From: Verrucomicrobiaceae bacterium
GTDB lineage: Bacteria; Verrucomicrobiota; Verrucomicrobiia; Verrucomicrobiales; Verrucomicrobiaceae
Assembly (NCBI GenBank): GCA_016795485.1
Contig: JAEUHM010000040.1
Coordinates: forward strand, 62,001-126,000
Direction of reading: 5' to 3'
DNA: 64,000 nucleotides
The notes below the pieces were generated by a model. The model did no database searches, had not been told where the DNA came from, and worked only from the letters and a program-made list of their open reading frames with translations. Below are positions 25,214 to 31,273 of the stretch, piece after piece. Position 1 is the first letter of the stretch, and every line of letters begins with the position of its first letter. The position numbers were made by a program, and so were the translations under genes.

Positions 25214-26071
25214 TCAAGGGTTCTTTCTCTGATCGTAGCGGCGAAGAAACAGGCGGGCTGTCACGAGTGAAATCTGAAGCCTGAACGTCGCATCCTCCTC
25301 TTCAGATAGGCCGGGATGTCCTCCATGAGGATGCATCCGGCTCAGTAGTCCCTGAACGAATTGGGGTTTCTGGTTGTTTGCGTTCCACTCGTTATATTCG
25401 CTCAATAAAAATGGAGGCTGAAGAGTGCCGAGATAATCCCGCTTCGCCTTACTGTCTGCCGCACTCGTGTCGCCAAGACCCTCTGCCATTTCATTCAGGT
25501 AACTCTCATAGAAATTACGAAGCTCGCCATTCGCTCCCGACCACTCACCCCGCTGGAAAGCAGAAATGGCTCGCACCAGATGGCCTTTTGCGGTGCGAAA
25601 GCCATTTCGATCCAGCAGCATCACAACCTCGCTCTCCGCATCTCGGAAGTCCGTGCCTGGGATGGTCTCAGGGAGCATGCGAACCAGAGCCGAAATTGGC
25701 TCCGTTGCCGTTTGCCCCCAAGAGAACAGACTCTGTGTTCCCACCTTCTCCGTTATAATTTCGAAGCCATCAAACCGAAGTCCTGCAATCAACTTTTTCC
25801 AAGTTGCCGAATCACGGTGCCTTTCTGGTGCTGTGATGGCTTTCTCGACCAGAGCGCGCGAAAGCGACACACGACCGCTCTGGGTAATTACTGTGGGCGC
25901 TTCCTCTAGGGCTATCCTCGCCAAGCTCGCTACGCGGGCCGATTTGCTGGTTGCGCCGCAGCGCCCTGCTATTCCCCACTGAACCTCCAAGACCTCCATA
26001 TCGTCATGTGAATGAAAGCAGGAGATGACCTCGGCTGCAGCGACGACAGTCATGTTGTTAAATTCACTCAT
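25214..26071 (-). CDS. Protein of unknown function in the methyltransferase-helicase operon, 285 aa
   Basis: The start overlaps the methyltransferase stop as ATGA, and the stop is 1 bp from the helicase start, so it is an integral member of the operon. The N-terminal half is mixed alpha/beta (LEVQWGIAGRCGATSKSARV, ITEKVGTQSLFSWG). The C-terminal half is helical: GHLVRAISAFQRGEW, LRNFYESYLNEMAEGLG, then SRMHPHGGHPGLSEEEDATF and ARLFLRRYDQR. The HPHGGHPGLSxEEDxTFR pattern is striking and recalls helical C-terminal domains of some abortive-infection proteins, but I cannot assign a family. Possible roles are target recognition or a bridge between the methyltransferase and helicase. Confidence 0.7.
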   Translation of the reverse strand: MSEFNNMTVVAAAEVISCFHSHDDMEVLEVQWGIAGRCGATSKSARVASLARIALEEAPTVITQSGRVSLSRALVEKAITAPERHRDSATWKKLIAGLRFDGFEIITEKVGTQSLFSWGQTATEPISALVRMLPETIPGTDFRDAESEVVMLLDRNGFRTAKGHLVRAISAFQRGEWSGANGELRNFYESYLNEMAEGLGDTSAADSKAKRDYLGTLQPPFLLSEYNEWNANNQKPQFVQGLLSRMHPHGGHPGLSEEEDATFRLQISLVTARLFLRRYDQRKNP

Positions 26072-28869
26072 GCTTTGAGAGTTATGGAGTTCCGCCGGAC
26101 TACTTTCTTTGTTGCCGGCTGTTTAGTGGACATCTGCGTGTAGAGTTCAAAGAGCTTCTCCAGGCGCTCGGTGTCGTTCTTGAAGCGGCGGCCGAGGTAG
26201 ATGCGCTCCAGCGTCTCGTCATTGCGCTCGTGGGCGGCCCGCAGGTCCTCGGGCATCGTCTCGGGATCGTAGAGATCGGCAATCGTCGCCGGGAAATGCG
26301 CCTCCCGCGCCAGCAGGATGTCCTCCGCGCAGCGCGTCAGGTCGGCTTTGTTCTGCTCCGTCAGCGGCGGCACGGGGAAGGTGTTCCAGCCGAGGGTGTT
26401 GGAGTATCGGTAACGTGTTTCGAGCTTTCCGCAGACAGTGGCGATCCAGACGAGGTGGAGCTTGGAAGCGATGATCGCTAAGTTCCAAAGCGGGGCGTCG
26501 TAGAGGGCGAAGGCGAGGTCTGAAATGATCGTTCCAGCCTCCATCCGCACTGCTGGCAAATAGCCGCGGCTTTCTGAGCTTACCCGCGGCACAACGATCG
26601 AGACTTCATCACCAACCTGCCGAACCTGCTGGAATGCGTGTGGACGAGCTGCCGTATCGCGAGTCAGTTTTTTCGTGCTCTTAAGTCTCATGGCTTCGAC
26701 CGCCGAAGTTCTGGCAGCAATCGAAGGGATACCCATGGCAGCTCCCTTCATTTCATCGGAAATCCAGAGACAGTAGCGGACCGCCCCATTGATCGCCTCG
26801 AAGGAGCCTACAAATCGTCTGAGGAAAAACTTTCGCTGAGCGGAGTTTAGGTTGAGCGCCGGAATTTCATCAGGTTCCAGCAAGAGATGACCTCCATCGA
26901 CGGCCTTATTGCCATTATCCATCGCAGTCATGGTTCCGAGCACTTCGTCAGACGGAGTGACTACGATGTTCGGCCCGGCCACCAAATAGGCGTTGATGTT
27001 CTCGGCATCTCTCAGCACCGCCCCGCCATCTTCATTGAGCGAGTAAAGGCGGCGCAGTTTCGCTGGACTGTTTGAGATGCCAATAATAGCGACCGTGACT
27101 CCGGCGTTGTGACTCGCAAGATTTGCCCACTTGAAGCTGGTGTGGGCGAAGTGAATTGCATGGCCGGTTTGAAAAATGATCGGCCAAAGAATGGGGACTT
27201 GTTGGCCTTGGCAGATTGAATTGGTCGAGACGAAAGCAGCATCGGCACGAGTGTGCGTGCCGTAATCGGCCGCCTTCATAAACCAGCCTGAGACGTAATC
27301 GAGCCAGCCCGACGAACTCGTTCGGCCTTCAAAGATATTTTTGATTTCGACCTTCTGTTCTTTCGACTGAAAAGTGGCTCCCAAATACGGCGGATTCCCG
27401 CAGATGTAAGTCTCCCCACCTTCATTCTCGAAATCAATCTCCGCCTGGTCCAGCGGCGTCTCAAACAAATCATCGGCACGGTTCTTCACCCCTTTGCCCG
27501 TGGGTGGGCAGATGCTCAGCCAGTCGAGCCGCAGCGCGTTCCCACAGGTGATCCAGTTTGCGGCCTCCAGCGGCAGGAACTCGGCGAGGGCCAGCCTTTG
27601 ACCGCGATAGAGCACGTCACACTGATACTCGGCGATGATGAGGGCGAGGCGGGCGATCTCGCAGGAGAAGTGACGCAGCTCGATACCGCGGAAGTTGGTA
27701 AGCGGGATGTCGGACTTGCGTTCGGCCTCGCCGCGTCGCTGGTTGATCTCCGCCTCGATCTCCCGCATCTGCTTGTAGGCGATGACAAGGAAGTTCCCGG
27801 AGCCGCAGGCAGGGTCAAAGACGCGGATGCGGGCGATGCGCTTGCGCAGGTTGAGGAGCTTTTGTGGACTGGTGCCCGCCTCCTCCAGCCGTGCCCGCAA
27901 GTCATCGAGAAAGAGCGGATTGAGCACCTTCAGGATGTTTGGCACGCTGGTGTAGTGCATGCCCAGGGCTCCGCGCTCCTCCTCATCCGCCACGGCCTGG
28001 ATCATGGAGCCGAAGATGTCCGGATTGATCTTGGTCCAGTCCAACGTGCCCACATGAATGAGGTAGGAGCGGGCGATCTTGCTGAAGCGCGGCACGTCCA
28101 CGCTGCCGGAGAACAGGCCGCCATTCACATAGGGGAAGACATCCGCCCAGCTCTTGATGCCTTCCTTCTCCCGCTGCTTTAGCGGCGTATTCATCGCGCG
28201 GAACAGCTCGGAGATGACCTCGTGCGTGTTCGACGAGTCCCGTGCGCTCATCTGCTCCACCGTGGCGGTGAACAGCCCCCGGCTGCGGAAGATGTCCGTG
28301 TCCTCGGCAAAGAACGAGAAGATGAGCCGGGCCATGAAGTGATTCAGCTCCTCCCTCCGGGCGGCGGTGTCCCATTTCGGGTTCTCCTTCAGCAGCTCGA
28401 TGTAGAGGCGGTTCAGGCGGCTGGTGGCCTTGATGTCGAAGGCGTTCTCCCGGATCTGCTTCACCGTGGTGATGCCCGCCAGCGGCAGGAAGAAGCCAAA
28501 GTGATTGTGGAAGTCCGAATAGTCGCAAGCGACCGTCTCCCCATCCGCAAGGTTCTCCGCCTCGAAGCTCTTTCCATCCGTGGCGAGGATGAACTTGCAC
28601 TTTTGCCGCGCCGTGGCCGGGCTGTCCCGCAACGCGGTCAGTGTGGCCGTGACCTGCCCCTCGGCGCAGACCTTGAGGTGGATGTTATTCCGCTGAAGCA
28701 CACCGCCGAGGTCCGACTGGTTCGTGCCGCCTTTCCCCTCTGCCTGAAGCCGCTTAATTGTCGTCTCCTTGTTTCCAAACGCCTCCAGGAAGGCAAACGG
28801 GAAGCGCGCAGCATCAAACGGCTCTTCCGCGAGCTTGGAGATGGCTTCTTCGATTTCGACGGCGTTCAT
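26068..28869 (-). CDS. MmeI/YeeA-like N6-adenine DNA methyltransferase
   Basis: A 933-aa class I SAM-dependent methyltransferase. Motif I is VFDPACGSGNFLV near residue 350, and motif IV is CGNPPYLGA near residue 490, typical of N6-adenine methylation. An N-terminal helical spacer precedes it and a large target-recognition region follows (residues ~600-850), with a C-terminal LTRCAEDILLAREAHFP segment. The size and order match MmeI/YeeA relatives. The N-terminal ~150 residues show no PD-(D/E)xK nuclease motif of the MmeI type, so cutting is probably supplied in trans. First gene of the minus-strand operon, divergent from the HTH module. Confidence 0.88.
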   Translation of the reverse strand: MNAVEIEEAISKLAEEPFDAARFPFAFLEAFGNKETTIKRLQAEGKGGTNQSDLGGVLQRNNIHLKVCAEGQVTATLTALRDSPATARQKCKFILATDGKSFEAENLADGETVACDYSDFHNHFGFFLPLAGITTVKQIRENAFDIKATSRLNRLYIELLKENPKWDTAARREELNHFMARLIFSFFAEDTDIFRSRGLFTATVEQMSARDSSNTHEVISELFRAMNTPLKQREKEGIKSWADVFPYVNGGLFSGSVDVPRFSKIARSYLIHVGTLDWTKINPDIFGSMIQAVADEEERGALGMHYTSVPNILKVLNPLFLDDLRARLEEAGTSPQKLLNLRKRIARIRVFDPACGSGNFLVIAYKQMREIEAEINQRRGEAERKSDIPLTNFRGIELRHFSCEIARLALIIAEYQCDVLYRGQRLALAEFLPLEAANWITCGNALRLDWLSICPPTGKGVKNRADDLFETPLDQAEIDFENEGGETYICGNPPYLGATFQSKEQKVEIKNIFEGRTSSSGWLDYVSGWFMKAADYGTHTRADAAFVSTNSICQGQQVPILWPIIFQTGHAIHFAHTSFKWANLASHNAGVTVAIIGISNSPAKLRRLYSLNEDGGAVLRDAENINAYLVAGPNIVVTPSDEVLGTMTAMDNGNKAVDGGHLLLEPDEIPALNLNSAQRKFFLRRFVGSFEAINGAVRYCLWISDEMKGAAMGIPSIAARTSAVEAMRLKSTKKLTRDTAARPHAFQQVRQVGDEVSIVVPRVSSESRGYLPAVRMEAGTIISDLAFALYDAPLWNLAIIASKLHLVWIATVCGKLETRYRYSNTLGWNTFPVPPLTEQNKADLTRCAEDILLAREAHFPATIADLYDPETMPEDLRAAHERNDETLERIYLGRRFKNDTERLEKLFELYTQMSTKQPATKKVVRRNSITLKA

Positions 28870-29117: not shown

Positions 29118-29287
29118 GCAAGGATTACGCTTGTTGCACGGTAGCCGGGTTGGATGCCGGGGAAGGCGGGTGGGTGGATGCTTGGCCTCAAAAAATCCTT
29201 GCCGCAGATGGGGTGGGTTTGGCACAATCTGCACTGATCGCTGCGGCATTTTCTCCTGAGGTTCAGGTGGACCTCTTGGTGCGATGA
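29114..29287 (+). CDS. Small ORF of 57 aa, coupled to the HTH genes
   Basis: ATG at 29114 preceded by a strong purine-rich ribosome site (AGAGGGAGAGACG). The frame reads MSKDYACCTVAGLDAGEGG, then WVDAWPQKILAADGVG and LAQSALIAAAFSPEVQ, and ends LLVR. It overlaps the preceding HTH frame by ATGA and the following HTH gene by ATGA (29284-29287), which is unlikely by chance for a non-coding stretch. A hydrophobic section in the second half (LAQSALIAAAF) could be a helix. Function unknown; an inhibitor or partner of the regulator is one idea. Confidence 0.5.
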   Translation: MSKDYACCTVAGLDAGEGGWVDAWPQKILAADGVGLAQSALIAAAFSPEVQVDLLVR

Positions 29288-29607
29288 ACAGCGGGACTCC
29301 TGCTCATGAGACACGTCTTATGCCTGACAACCGGGAGCGTGATGCTTTCGAGTATGCCACACGGTTGTGTGAGGAGTTGCCGCATTTTCTGCATGACTGC
29401 CGGGAAGGCGCGCACTTGAGCCGCTACGCTTTGCAAAAGTCTTGCGGCGTCTCCCGCGACATGCTGGGCAATGTGGAGCACGGTCAATCGGTGCCGACGC
29501 TCTTTGTCCTGGCACGGATCGCCTATGGCAACCGCATGACGCTGACGGAATTTGTGAGGCAGTTGGAAAGTCGGTGCAGCGCTCCGCAAAAAGAGACCGT
29601 GGAGTGA
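29284..29607 (+). CDS. XRE-family helix-turn-helix regulator
   Basis: A 107-aa protein. The HTH spans about residues 40-95: LSRYALQKSCGVSRDMLGNVE, then HGQSVPTLFVLARIA and GNRMTLTEFV. It is a typical Cro/CI-type DNA-binding domain, probably dimeric, and small enough to be a controller protein. An in-frame ATG at residue 13 (MPDNRERD) could also be the start. It ends a coupled HTH - 57-aa - HTH set divergent from the methyltransferase operon, an arrangement like that of restriction-modification control proteins; regulation of the operon is inferred from position only. Confidence 0.8.
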   Translation: MNSGTPAHETRLMPDNRERDAFEYATRLCEELPHFLHDCREGAHLSRYALQKSCGVSRDMLGNVEHGQSVPTLFVLARIAYGNRMTLTEFVRQLESRCSAPQKETVE

Positions 29608-29798
29608 TCCACGTGGCAGGTATGTCGGAGATGTCCGACTAACGCTTTGCCTGGGGCTGTGGTGAGATAGCGGGCGAATCCACCACCAGCCGAGATGAAG
29701 CCGATTTTTCTCTCCAACTGCTCGATTTGGGCTCCGGGGACCGCTTTTGGGCCTAAAACGGCGGTTTTTTGCCCCAAAACGCTTCCCCCATTCGGCGC

Positions 29799-30042
29799 GG
29801 GGGCGTCGTTGGACGCTCTGGGGGCGGAGTTCCGCCGCGCGGGGGCGTCGTTGGACGGCGCGGGGGCAGAGTTCCGCCGTCCGGGGGCGTCGTTGGACGG
29901 CGCGGGGGCAGAGTTCCGCCGTCCGGGGGCGTCGTTGCACGGCGCGGGGGCGGAGTTCCGCCGTCCGGGGGCCGCCCCCATTTCCCGGGACGACGCCCCC
30001 GCAGCGTGGAGCGCTGCCCCCGTAGCGCGGAACGGACCCCCC
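29799..30042. repeat. 21-bp-period GGGGGC array that inverts strand at a fold-back
   Basis: Eight head-to-tail 21-bp units of the form GGGGGC-N15 occupy 29799-29966, alternating two types: type A begins GGGGGCGTCGTTGG, type B GGGGGC(A/G)GAGTTCCGCC. A and B together make a 42-bp higher-order repeat. At 29967-29979 GGGGGC-C-GCCCCC forms a fold-back, after which three units of N15-GCCCCC (the last CCCCCC) continue with the same 21-bp register on the other strand to 30042. The array lies 141 bp upstream of the gene at 30183. Open frames across it on both strands are low-complexity and not counted as genes. The 29608-29798 stretch before it shows nothing else recognisable. Confidence 0.85.
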
Positions 30043-30063
30043 GGATGCTGCGGGGGAAGACTG

Positions 30064-30182
30064 GGAGAAGAGCAGGCTGGGAGATTCAGTCTCTCCAAGT
30101 CCCCTCGTCTCCAAGTCTCCATGTCTCGTCCGAAGGTCACCCTCCCGCTCTCCATGACTCCACCCCTCCAAGTCTCACCGCC
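30064..30182. repeat. Short direct repeats of a CTCCAAGTC motif
   Basis: Between the 21-bp array and the next gene, pyrimidine-rich copies of TCTCCAAGTC occur at about 30092, 30110 and (as CTCCAAGTCTC) 30166, with the related CTCCATGTCTC/CTCCATGACTC at 30117 and 30151. They alternate CTCC blocks with AAGTC, ATGTC or ATGAC. The role is unknown; the spacing of about 18-40 bp is irregular. Confidence 0.4.
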
Positions 30183-30977
30183 ATGAACTGGGACCAAGGA
30201 ACCTGGGACAACGGCTTTTGGGACCAGCCGTCGGATTACCTTTTCCTTCAACGCAAACCACAGAACAACCGCACCAAAATGAAAAGACAAGACTACTACC
30301 CCAGTCGCATCGGAGACCAGGTCAACTGGCTCGACAACTATGGAACCAAGCTCCCCATCCACGGGGCCACGCTTGGTGTGATCGCTGGCGACATCACCGC
30401 CAGTGTGAATGACGCGAAATACGCCAAATACGTCCTGGGCACCTGGCTCACCGCCGTGCGTGCCTTTTCACCCTCCACGACGGATGCAGTGGATGATGTG
30501 CTCACTGGCGGTGGCACCACGCCCTTTGTGCTGCCCACCTTCACCGCGCCGGACCTGCCCGCTGGCGTCACTGCCGCCATCCCCGGCACGCTGAACCGCA
30601 TCTTTGCCCTGGTGGCCAAAATGAAACTGAGCGCGGGCTACACGGAAGCGATCGGCACGGACCTGGGTATCGTGGGCGCGGAGCAGACGGATAAGGCGCT
30701 GCCAAAGTTCGACGCGGAGCTGCTGCAAGGCGCGGGCTGCCAGTGTGTGAAGCTCACCTTTGCCAAATACGGCCACATGGGTGTCTACATCGAGAGCCGC
30801 CGAGGCAATGGAGTGTGGGAGTTTCTGGCTATCGACACGGAAAGCCCCTACATGGATGAGCGCCCGCTGCTGGCAGCCGGACAACCGGAGGTGCGTGAGT
30901 ACCGCATGCGCTTCTGGGACAAAGGCACACCGAATGGCGACTGGACGGATGTGGTGAAGGTGACGGTCTCTCCGTAG
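30183..30977 (+). CDS. Unknown protein with a WD-rich N-terminus, 264 aa
   Basis: The ATG at 30183 opens MNWDQGTWDNGFWDQP, a short three-fold W-D repeat, followed by a basic segment (KPQNNRTKMKRQDYYPSR). The middle has a helical region, NWLDNYGTKLPIHGATLGVI and AKYAKYVLGTWLTAVRAF. The C-terminal half resembles a beta-sandwich, CQCVKLTFAKYGHMGVYIE, then GVWEFLAIDTESPYMDERP and DWTDVVKVTVSP. Fibronectin-like or surface function is conceivable, but there is no signal peptide. I do not recognise the family, though the W-D start looks like one repeated in verrucomicrobial genomes. The upstream repeat array may belong to its control region. Confidence 0.65.
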   Translation: MNWDQGTWDNGFWDQPSDYLFLQRKPQNNRTKMKRQDYYPSRIGDQVNWLDNYGTKLPIHGATLGVIAGDITASVNDAKYAKYVLGTWLTAVRAFSPSTTDAVDDVLTGGGTTPFVLPTFTAPDLPAGVTAAIPGTLNRIFALVAKMKLSAGYTEAIGTDLGIVGAEQTDKALPKFDAELLQGAGCQCVKLTFAKYGHMGVYIESRRGNGVWEFLAIDTESPYMDERPLLAAGQPEVREYRMRFWDKGTPNGDWTDVVKVTVSP

Positions 30978-31009
30978 CGCACTGCGTTCGCGCGTTGCAG
31001 TGGTTGGCC

Positions 31010-31273
31010 ATGGCTGAAGGGCGCTCCGCGCCATTGACGGTTGTTGGCAAACCACTGCAAAGCCAGGTGATGCGAGATCAGCTCAATGCGCTCAATGATG
31101 ACATCCAGACCCGTGTGACGGAGGCGCAGTTGATCGGTGCCATTGACGGCACCAGCGCCAACACCAATGCGGTGGATGTGCTGAGCATGAACGCAGACGC
31201 GAACTACGAGCAGGGCCAGATGCAGTTGGTGTTGAAGAAGATTGATCAACTGATCCTGGCACTGAGACGGTGA
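31010..31273 (+). CDS. Small hypothetical protein following the WD-rich gene, 87 aa
   Basis: From ATG 31010: MAEGRSAPLTVVGKPLQSQV, then LNALNDDIQTRVTEAQLIG and NYEQGQMQLVLKKIDQLILA. It is mostly helical and acidic, and could form a coiled coil. It begins 32 bp after the previous stop, so it is probably co-transcribed; a TTG five codons upstream is an alternative start. Unknown function; the pair may work together. Confidence 0.5.
   Translation: MAEGRSAPLTVVGKPLQSQVMRDQLNALNDDIQTRVTEAQLIGAIDGTSANTNAVDVLSMNADANYEQGQMQLVLKKIDQLILALRR

Follow-up and report, generated by a model that had tools for sequence, protein, structure and literature searches.

What maintains a stretch of DNA in which a guanine run returns every 21 bp, turns back on the opposite strand and continues towards a gene? 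The array that raises this question lies in a 64,000-nt stretch of a 6.5-Mb Verrucomicrobiaceae genome (G000:C46:62001-126000), hereafter the window. The array and its neighbours are arranged as follows, in window coordinates.

29284-29607 (+): Xre-type helix-turn-helix (HTH) ORF of 107 aa, the first cassette gene (Pfam HTH_31, 7e-6; HTH_3, 1.6e-5)
29637-29782 (+): conserved leader, already weakly 21-bp periodic, delimited by blastn blocks and identity to orthologues
29799-29972 (+): forward half of the array, nine GGGGGC runs at one per 21 bp, in two alternating 21-mers (42-bp higher order)
29967-29979 (no strand): fold-back GGGGGC-C-GCCCCC, kept in four homologous arrays
29974-30043 (-): inverted half of the array, GCCCCC at 29974, 29995 and 30016 and degenerate at 30038, 8 bp off the forward lattice
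30044-30182 (+): CT-rich spacer from array to gene, poorly conserved among orthologues
30183-30977 (+): WDxG/FN3-like gene of 264 aa, from a multicopy family (copy counts, AF2 model)
30995-31273 (+): small ORF of 92 aa, RDQLNALNDDIQ...SANTNAV...LILALRR, probable third cassette gene (similar ORFs at other loci)

Within the forward half, GGGGGC begins at 29799, 29820, 29841, 29862, 29883, 29904, 29925, 29946 and 29967, with every spacing equal to 21 bp. The initial annotation had recognised this 21-bp array and counted eight forward units; there are nine, the last belonging to the fold-back. Its two alternating unit types are borne out by TRF, which returned a 42-bp higher-order unit at 94% match, and the fold-back followed by three inverted units is confirmed by the positions of the GCCCCC runs, which are again 21 bp apart and are followed by a degenerate fourth C-run at 30038-30043. 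The inverted units had also been placed in the same 21-bp phase as the forward ones. Here the period holds and the register does not: the inverted C5 runs begin at phase 8 of the forward lattice, and the proposal that all G-runs share one helix face is therefore limited to each half and fails across the fold-back. The window array contains 10 in-phase pairs, compared with a mean of 0.011 and a maximum of 1 in 2000 dinucleotide shuffles, and its GC content is 80% against 56.5% for the window. It also exceeds the bounds first given to it, as homology and weak 21-bp periodicity run upstream into the leader, starting near 29637-29695 (blastn blocks begin at 29637 against C25 and at 29673 against C41b; identity to orthologues is 65-77%, gap-free from 29695). 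Because the same array was found in independent assemblies (a Verrucomicrobiaceae MAG, G028, JAIXOU010000106.1; and JAFMIR010000091.1, a Prosthecobacter MAG) and again at another locus in its own genome (C41:121-379), it is no assembly artefact, and the observation is confirmed as real. Related arrays are present elsewhere in the family and order, these two MAGs among them. The idea that the G5 blocks might pair as G-quadruplexes was discarded: the array has 0 canonical G4 motifs (loops would be about 16 nt), and most sister arrays lack G-runs.

The array is one part of a recurring gene arrangement. At 10 loci, and also at C41b, the array is preceded by a homologue of the Xre-type HTH ORF, and at about half of the loci the HTH ORF is unrecognised by an HTH profile. 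A comparable small ORF stands immediately 3' of the FN3-type gene at G028a, C31 and C47, and the cassettes occupy different genomic neighbourhoods. In the window, the DNA just upstream of the HTH gene (26068-28869, minus strand) encodes a complete MmeI-type (type IIL) restriction-modification enzyme of 933 aa (Pfam MmeI_Mtase, 6e-116, plus TRD, N, helicase-spacer and C domains). The product of the gene at 30183-30977 had no match in Pfam, NCBIfam, PHROGs or PADLOC, and none by sequence in the PDB. The family is multicopy, with 14 matches counted in its own genome and matches in 13 of the 57 genomes searched. An AF2 model (28 sequences, pLDDT 81) predicts that the N-terminus is WD-rich and disordered and is followed by a helical hairpin and, at the C-terminus, a beta-sandwich. 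Among the best Foldseek matches of the model are PDB domains of FN3 type (E about 4e-3) and, from BFVD, FN3/tail-fibre proteins of phages (E 3e-4 to 1e-3); these matches are weak and partial, and the predicted sandwich is FN3-like in this qualified sense. Searching with tblastn found no match to the gene among 50,697 phage records or 72,556 plasmid records, and a phage or plasmid origin was rejected.

Across the family, the arrays agree in their period. Autocorrelation of the upstream DNA was computed over all lags from 8 to 63 for 38 sampled family copies or fragments, and the top lag was 21, or its multiples 42 and 63, at about 30 of the 38, among them one locus from a different family of the order (G310) and another from outside the class (G067). 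The units themselves are unrelated between loci (GGGGGC..., GGTAGCNNTACC, TTTCCAATTGG, TTGCCCTCCGTCAATCTGGCG, GACGTCGCTGGGCGGTACACC, GGAGGCGCACCTCC, GGTACACGTACC, TTGTCGTACGACAA and others). What these loci have in common is the 21-bp period and not a sequence, and the two features initially reported for the window, a period of two helical turns and a location just upstream of a gene, recur at about 30 other loci with unrelated units. The exceptions or unclear cases are C42, G004b and G067d, which have 8-bp repeats (the upstream contig of G004b being short), a gene fragment at C58, and G067b, G068, G067c and G017, in which an array is present and lag 21 is not the top one. A class of period-locked, sequence-diverse arrays tied to a gene cassette very probably exists. 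We found no description of it in the open-access literature, and it appears not to have been described before.

To place these arrays in their genomic background, the own genome was sampled by regions amounting to 1.25 Mb, with a tandem-period threshold of 0.55. The commonest tandem period was 21 bp (17 segments), followed among basic periods by 24 bp (8 segments), which, as in coding repeats, is divisible by three. Every recognised WDxG-type gene in the sampled DNA has an upstream array, among them two genes of other WDxG families, at C49:54453 (RWDTNGLTWDSG) and C20:169599 (MNWDEGVWDQGVWD); about seven further arrays of this sample lie next to no recognised family gene. G011 and G002, both complete genomes from the same bacterial family with no copy of the gene found, yielded zero non-coding 21-bp arrays in 800 kb, the sole 21-bp match falling inside a long ORF. 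In a third genome, G010, where the gene does occur, 400 kb yielded four, of which three immediately precede genes of the family. These comparisons show that the arrays occur in genomes with the gene family. One array in G010 (C57:193034-193218, in L295) is separated by about 145 bp from an ORF of 296 aa belonging to another family (MPITNNASYVPTMNEFAAHW...), which suggests that arrays of this class serve other genes besides those of the WDxG families.

Arrays and their flanks can have separate histories. Between C4 and C47 the leader is 97% and the gene 90% alike, whereas the array and the HTH are completely different. At C49:212k, an orphan array without the gene is a 95% copy of the C4 array and ends where C4 has its start codon. 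Two distant arrays without a recognised family gene, C20:10069-10444 and C4:252863-253278 (L237, L218), have a 42-bp unit in common as reverse complements (AACCTGGAAATCGAAAA...AACCTCGGAACGCC), which indicates that arrays themselves spread.

At the window-type locus, the array is under constraint. The arrays of the window, C41b, G028a and Prosthecobacter align over 340 nt without a single gap, which upholds the initial impression of a regularity beyond that of a decayed repeat. Among three orthologous loci from three genera, array identity is 75-83%, compared with 55-62% at the gene's fourfold sites and 32-60% in the spacer that leads to the start codon. Invariant columns make up 78% of the G-run and 59% of the rest, with 0.92 at the second, fourth and fifth G of the run. 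The length of window-type arrays is fixed across the three genera, and the C47 and C41 arrays differ in length. Purifying selection thus forbids indels in the window-type array, and the array is non-coding. The latter point bears on a reading in which 21 bp are seven codons and the array encodes heptad repeats of a protein, since the ORF at 29695-30186 (MKPIF...GASLDGAGAEFRRP) spans it. This frame is open, with similar starts, in four homologues, and frames are open at C4, C14 and G028b too; however, the array has more than one open frame, which is to be expected when a 21-mer is poor in stops. Moreover, every array pair has its substitutions spread evenly over the three codon positions (28/25/29, 34/31/31, 27/21/21 and so on), a pattern that speaks against purifying selection on a protein in whatever frame. 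Protein coding is therefore not the conserved trait even though an ORF spans the array, and a protein of seven-codon repeats, largely refuted by these counts, is highly improbable.

The reading that we prefer, tentatively, is that of a helically phased array of DNA sites within an HTH-array-FN3-gene cassette, bound cooperatively by the adjacent HTH protein. According to this model, the array would serve in cis as the DNA element of a movable cassette that occurs repeatedly and consists of the Xre-type HTH gene, the leader, the 21-bp array, the WDxG/FN3-like gene and the small ORF. It would act as duplex DNA, one 21-bp unit being one protein site, and the exact two-turn spacing would bring all sites of one half onto one face. 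The binding protein, most likely the cassette's HTH product in the form of dimers, would bind cooperatively over about 12-18 sites, and the resulting nucleoprotein stretch would control, probably by silencing or switching, the downstream FN3-type gene. Unit sequences would diverge along with the HTH protein of each locus, thereby keeping paralogous cassettes from cross-regulation. HTH identity does correlate with unit similarity (Mantel r 0.67, p 0.0002). With gene relatedness removed the correlation is weak (partial r 0.32, p 0.05), and G-run arrays are common to the window and G010 though their HTH proteins are only 32% identical; recognition of the array by the HTH protein is thus put forward as a hypothesis and not as a result. 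The inferred cooperative binding of protein to phased sites is a serious possibility. More doubtful is the wider proposition that selection keeps the pitch, at exactly two DNA turns, and leaves the sequence free, such that each HTH-FN3 cassette would have a private, period-locked array and the arrays would be a new kind of element. If this were true, Verrucomicrobiota genomes would each carry dozens of switches insulated from one another.

Whether the array works as DNA or as RNA can be approached through the symmetry of its units. Over 30 arrays, self-complementarity of the unit (dyad symmetry) exceeds that of column-permuted controls (Stouffer z 7.4); individually it is significant in 10 of the 30, and for the window array p is 0.88. 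Among non-Watson-Crick cells, G-T and A-C are equally depleted (117 versus 134 expected and 151 versus 173 expected, respectively), and this absence of a wobble preference is as expected of duplex DNA; the symmetry of the arrays is DNA-like, not RNA-like. The competing view is that the array is transcribed as a 5' leader in which a long hairpin or a string of hairpins controls the downstream product, or that a separate RNA made from it would be inhibitory, by analogy with the repeat RNA of type III toxin-antitoxin systems. Its position directly upstream of a gene would suit such a role, and the fold-back would close a single hairpin of about 280 nt. The window array folds better than its shuffles (z -4.85), as do 31 arrays on the plus strand on average (mean z -3.6, and -2.3 against column permutation). 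However, the opposite strand folds equally well (-4.0), and C47, G048a and G010d are among the arrays that fold no better than shuffles. RNAalifold on the four homologues gave a covariation term of +1.1, that is none, with both sides changed in 7 of 98 pairs, and G-U is no more favoured than A-C. Nothing reached the gathering threshold in Rfam for the window or for eight sister loci, and a lone chance match to mir-2545, far under the gathering score, was dismissed. RNA hairpin units were rejected for want of wobble asymmetry and covariation. Since both strands fold equally, covariation is absent and Rfam has no match, a DNA function is favoured, and a structured RNA of either kind is unlikely.

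Two further readings were weighed. The array might be a non-functional satellite, its 21-bp units made and homogenised by tandem duplication, tolerated in long intergenic regions and carried with the cassette. Near-perfect repeats in some arrays, unit numbers that differ between close paralogues (C47 and C41), the locally homogenised look of the 42-bp units in the window and the existence of orphan arrays all fit this account. It offers no reason, however, for one period across dozens of unrelated sequences, for gap-free alignment between genera or for conservation above fourfold sites, nor does it agree with the lack of non-coding arrays in 800 kb of relatives without the gene family; we consider it rather improbable. 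Alternatively, arrays might be ends, landing sites or exchange sites for swapping cassettes or arrays between loci. The replacement of arrays between the otherwise near-identical flanks of C4 and C47, the copying of an array without its gene to C49:212k, up to the position of the start codon, and the differing neighbourhoods of the cassettes all suggest such traffic. Yet an unsystematic look beside the cassettes revealed neither integrase nor transposase, the gene is absent from the phage and plasmid records searched, and gapless conservation is unexpected of exchange sites, which makes a recombination or mobility site very unlikely.

The arrangement proposed here, a phased array of sites for an HTH protein, resembles tandem operator arrays such as iterons, phage and plasmid repressor operators and the heptad arrays of omega repressors, in that regular, partly dyad-symmetric repeats adjoin the gene of an HTH regulator and lie upstream of a gene. 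It differs from them in comprising 10-18 or more units, in keeping a 21-bp period despite unrelated sequences and in being chromosomal, multicopy and at some loci strand-reversing, and the sites are putative. Type III toxin-antitoxin loci (ToxIN, CptIN, TenpIN) likewise place a tandem array directly upstream of a gene and have repeats that differ between homologues, but ToxI repeats are longer than the 21-bp repeats found here. Moreover, the product of the present gene is FN3-like by its predicted fold and has no ToxN, CptN or TenpN match in Pfam, NCBIfam or PADLOC, and the RNA covariation and G-U preference looked for above are both missing. CRISPR arrays have regular spacing in common with the present ones; here, however, the pitch is 21 bp, there is no constant repeat with unique spacers, and Cas genes were not noticed. 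REP/BIME palindromic repeats and minisatellites (VNTR) are also intergenic, dispersed and partly palindromic or tandem, whereas the present arrays do not form a single sequence family, conserve their period instead of a sequence and, at the window-type locus, keep unit number and register between genera.

Homologous regulatory DNA is normally recognised by its conserved sequence. Paralogous arrays of this class differ in sequence and keep the 21-bp pitch, and sequence searches are therefore blind to it. A scan of the phylum for CGGGG at 21-bp pitch returned mostly unrelated coding or simple repeats, showing that a fixed-sequence pattern is the wrong probe. The class marks a multicopy gene family that no database model covers, in a phylum for which genetic tools are few, and allows a clean test of whether helical phase alone can be a selected trait.

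A pattern scan of contigs also matched Actinomycetota, Myxococcota and a gammaproteobacterial Thiotrichaceae MAG; these arrays look different and were left out of the counts. In the Thiotrichaceae MAG (S06.Bin195), six contigs (L087, L092, L093, L094, L097 and L099) carry many 21-bp arrays of CCCCCGCGGCGTGGATGACTC with a terminal GCGTGCGGGGGGG fold-back and flanks of GTACAAGAGAACAGGAATACTACTATA. The viral contig IMGVR_UViG_3300006736_000309 opens with a 21-bp array of the CCGAACTGACACCCCATTGGG type, 5' of its first ORF (L100:1-147). Within the same phylum, G242, G185, G254 and G271 (L043, L044, L047 and L068) have different 21-bp arrays (GCGCAGGACAGAGCCTGCGTT; CCCGGGTGCCCCAAGCACCAC), which are possibly further members of the period-21 class.

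Neighbouring periods were seen as well. The window itself contains, at 2024-2213, a tandem repeat of 43-44 bp (TCACCACCCCACAGGCTCCGAAACCAGAGCCTAGAGGCAGGGTA, 4.4 copies), close to twice 21-22 bp. In the same genome, two arrays with a period of 22 bp and 11-12 copies (G000:C14:40180-40423 and 92458-92714; L188 and L190) carry one unit, CGCGTTACTCGACCTCGAACAT, in opposite orientation and form a second, distinct array class.
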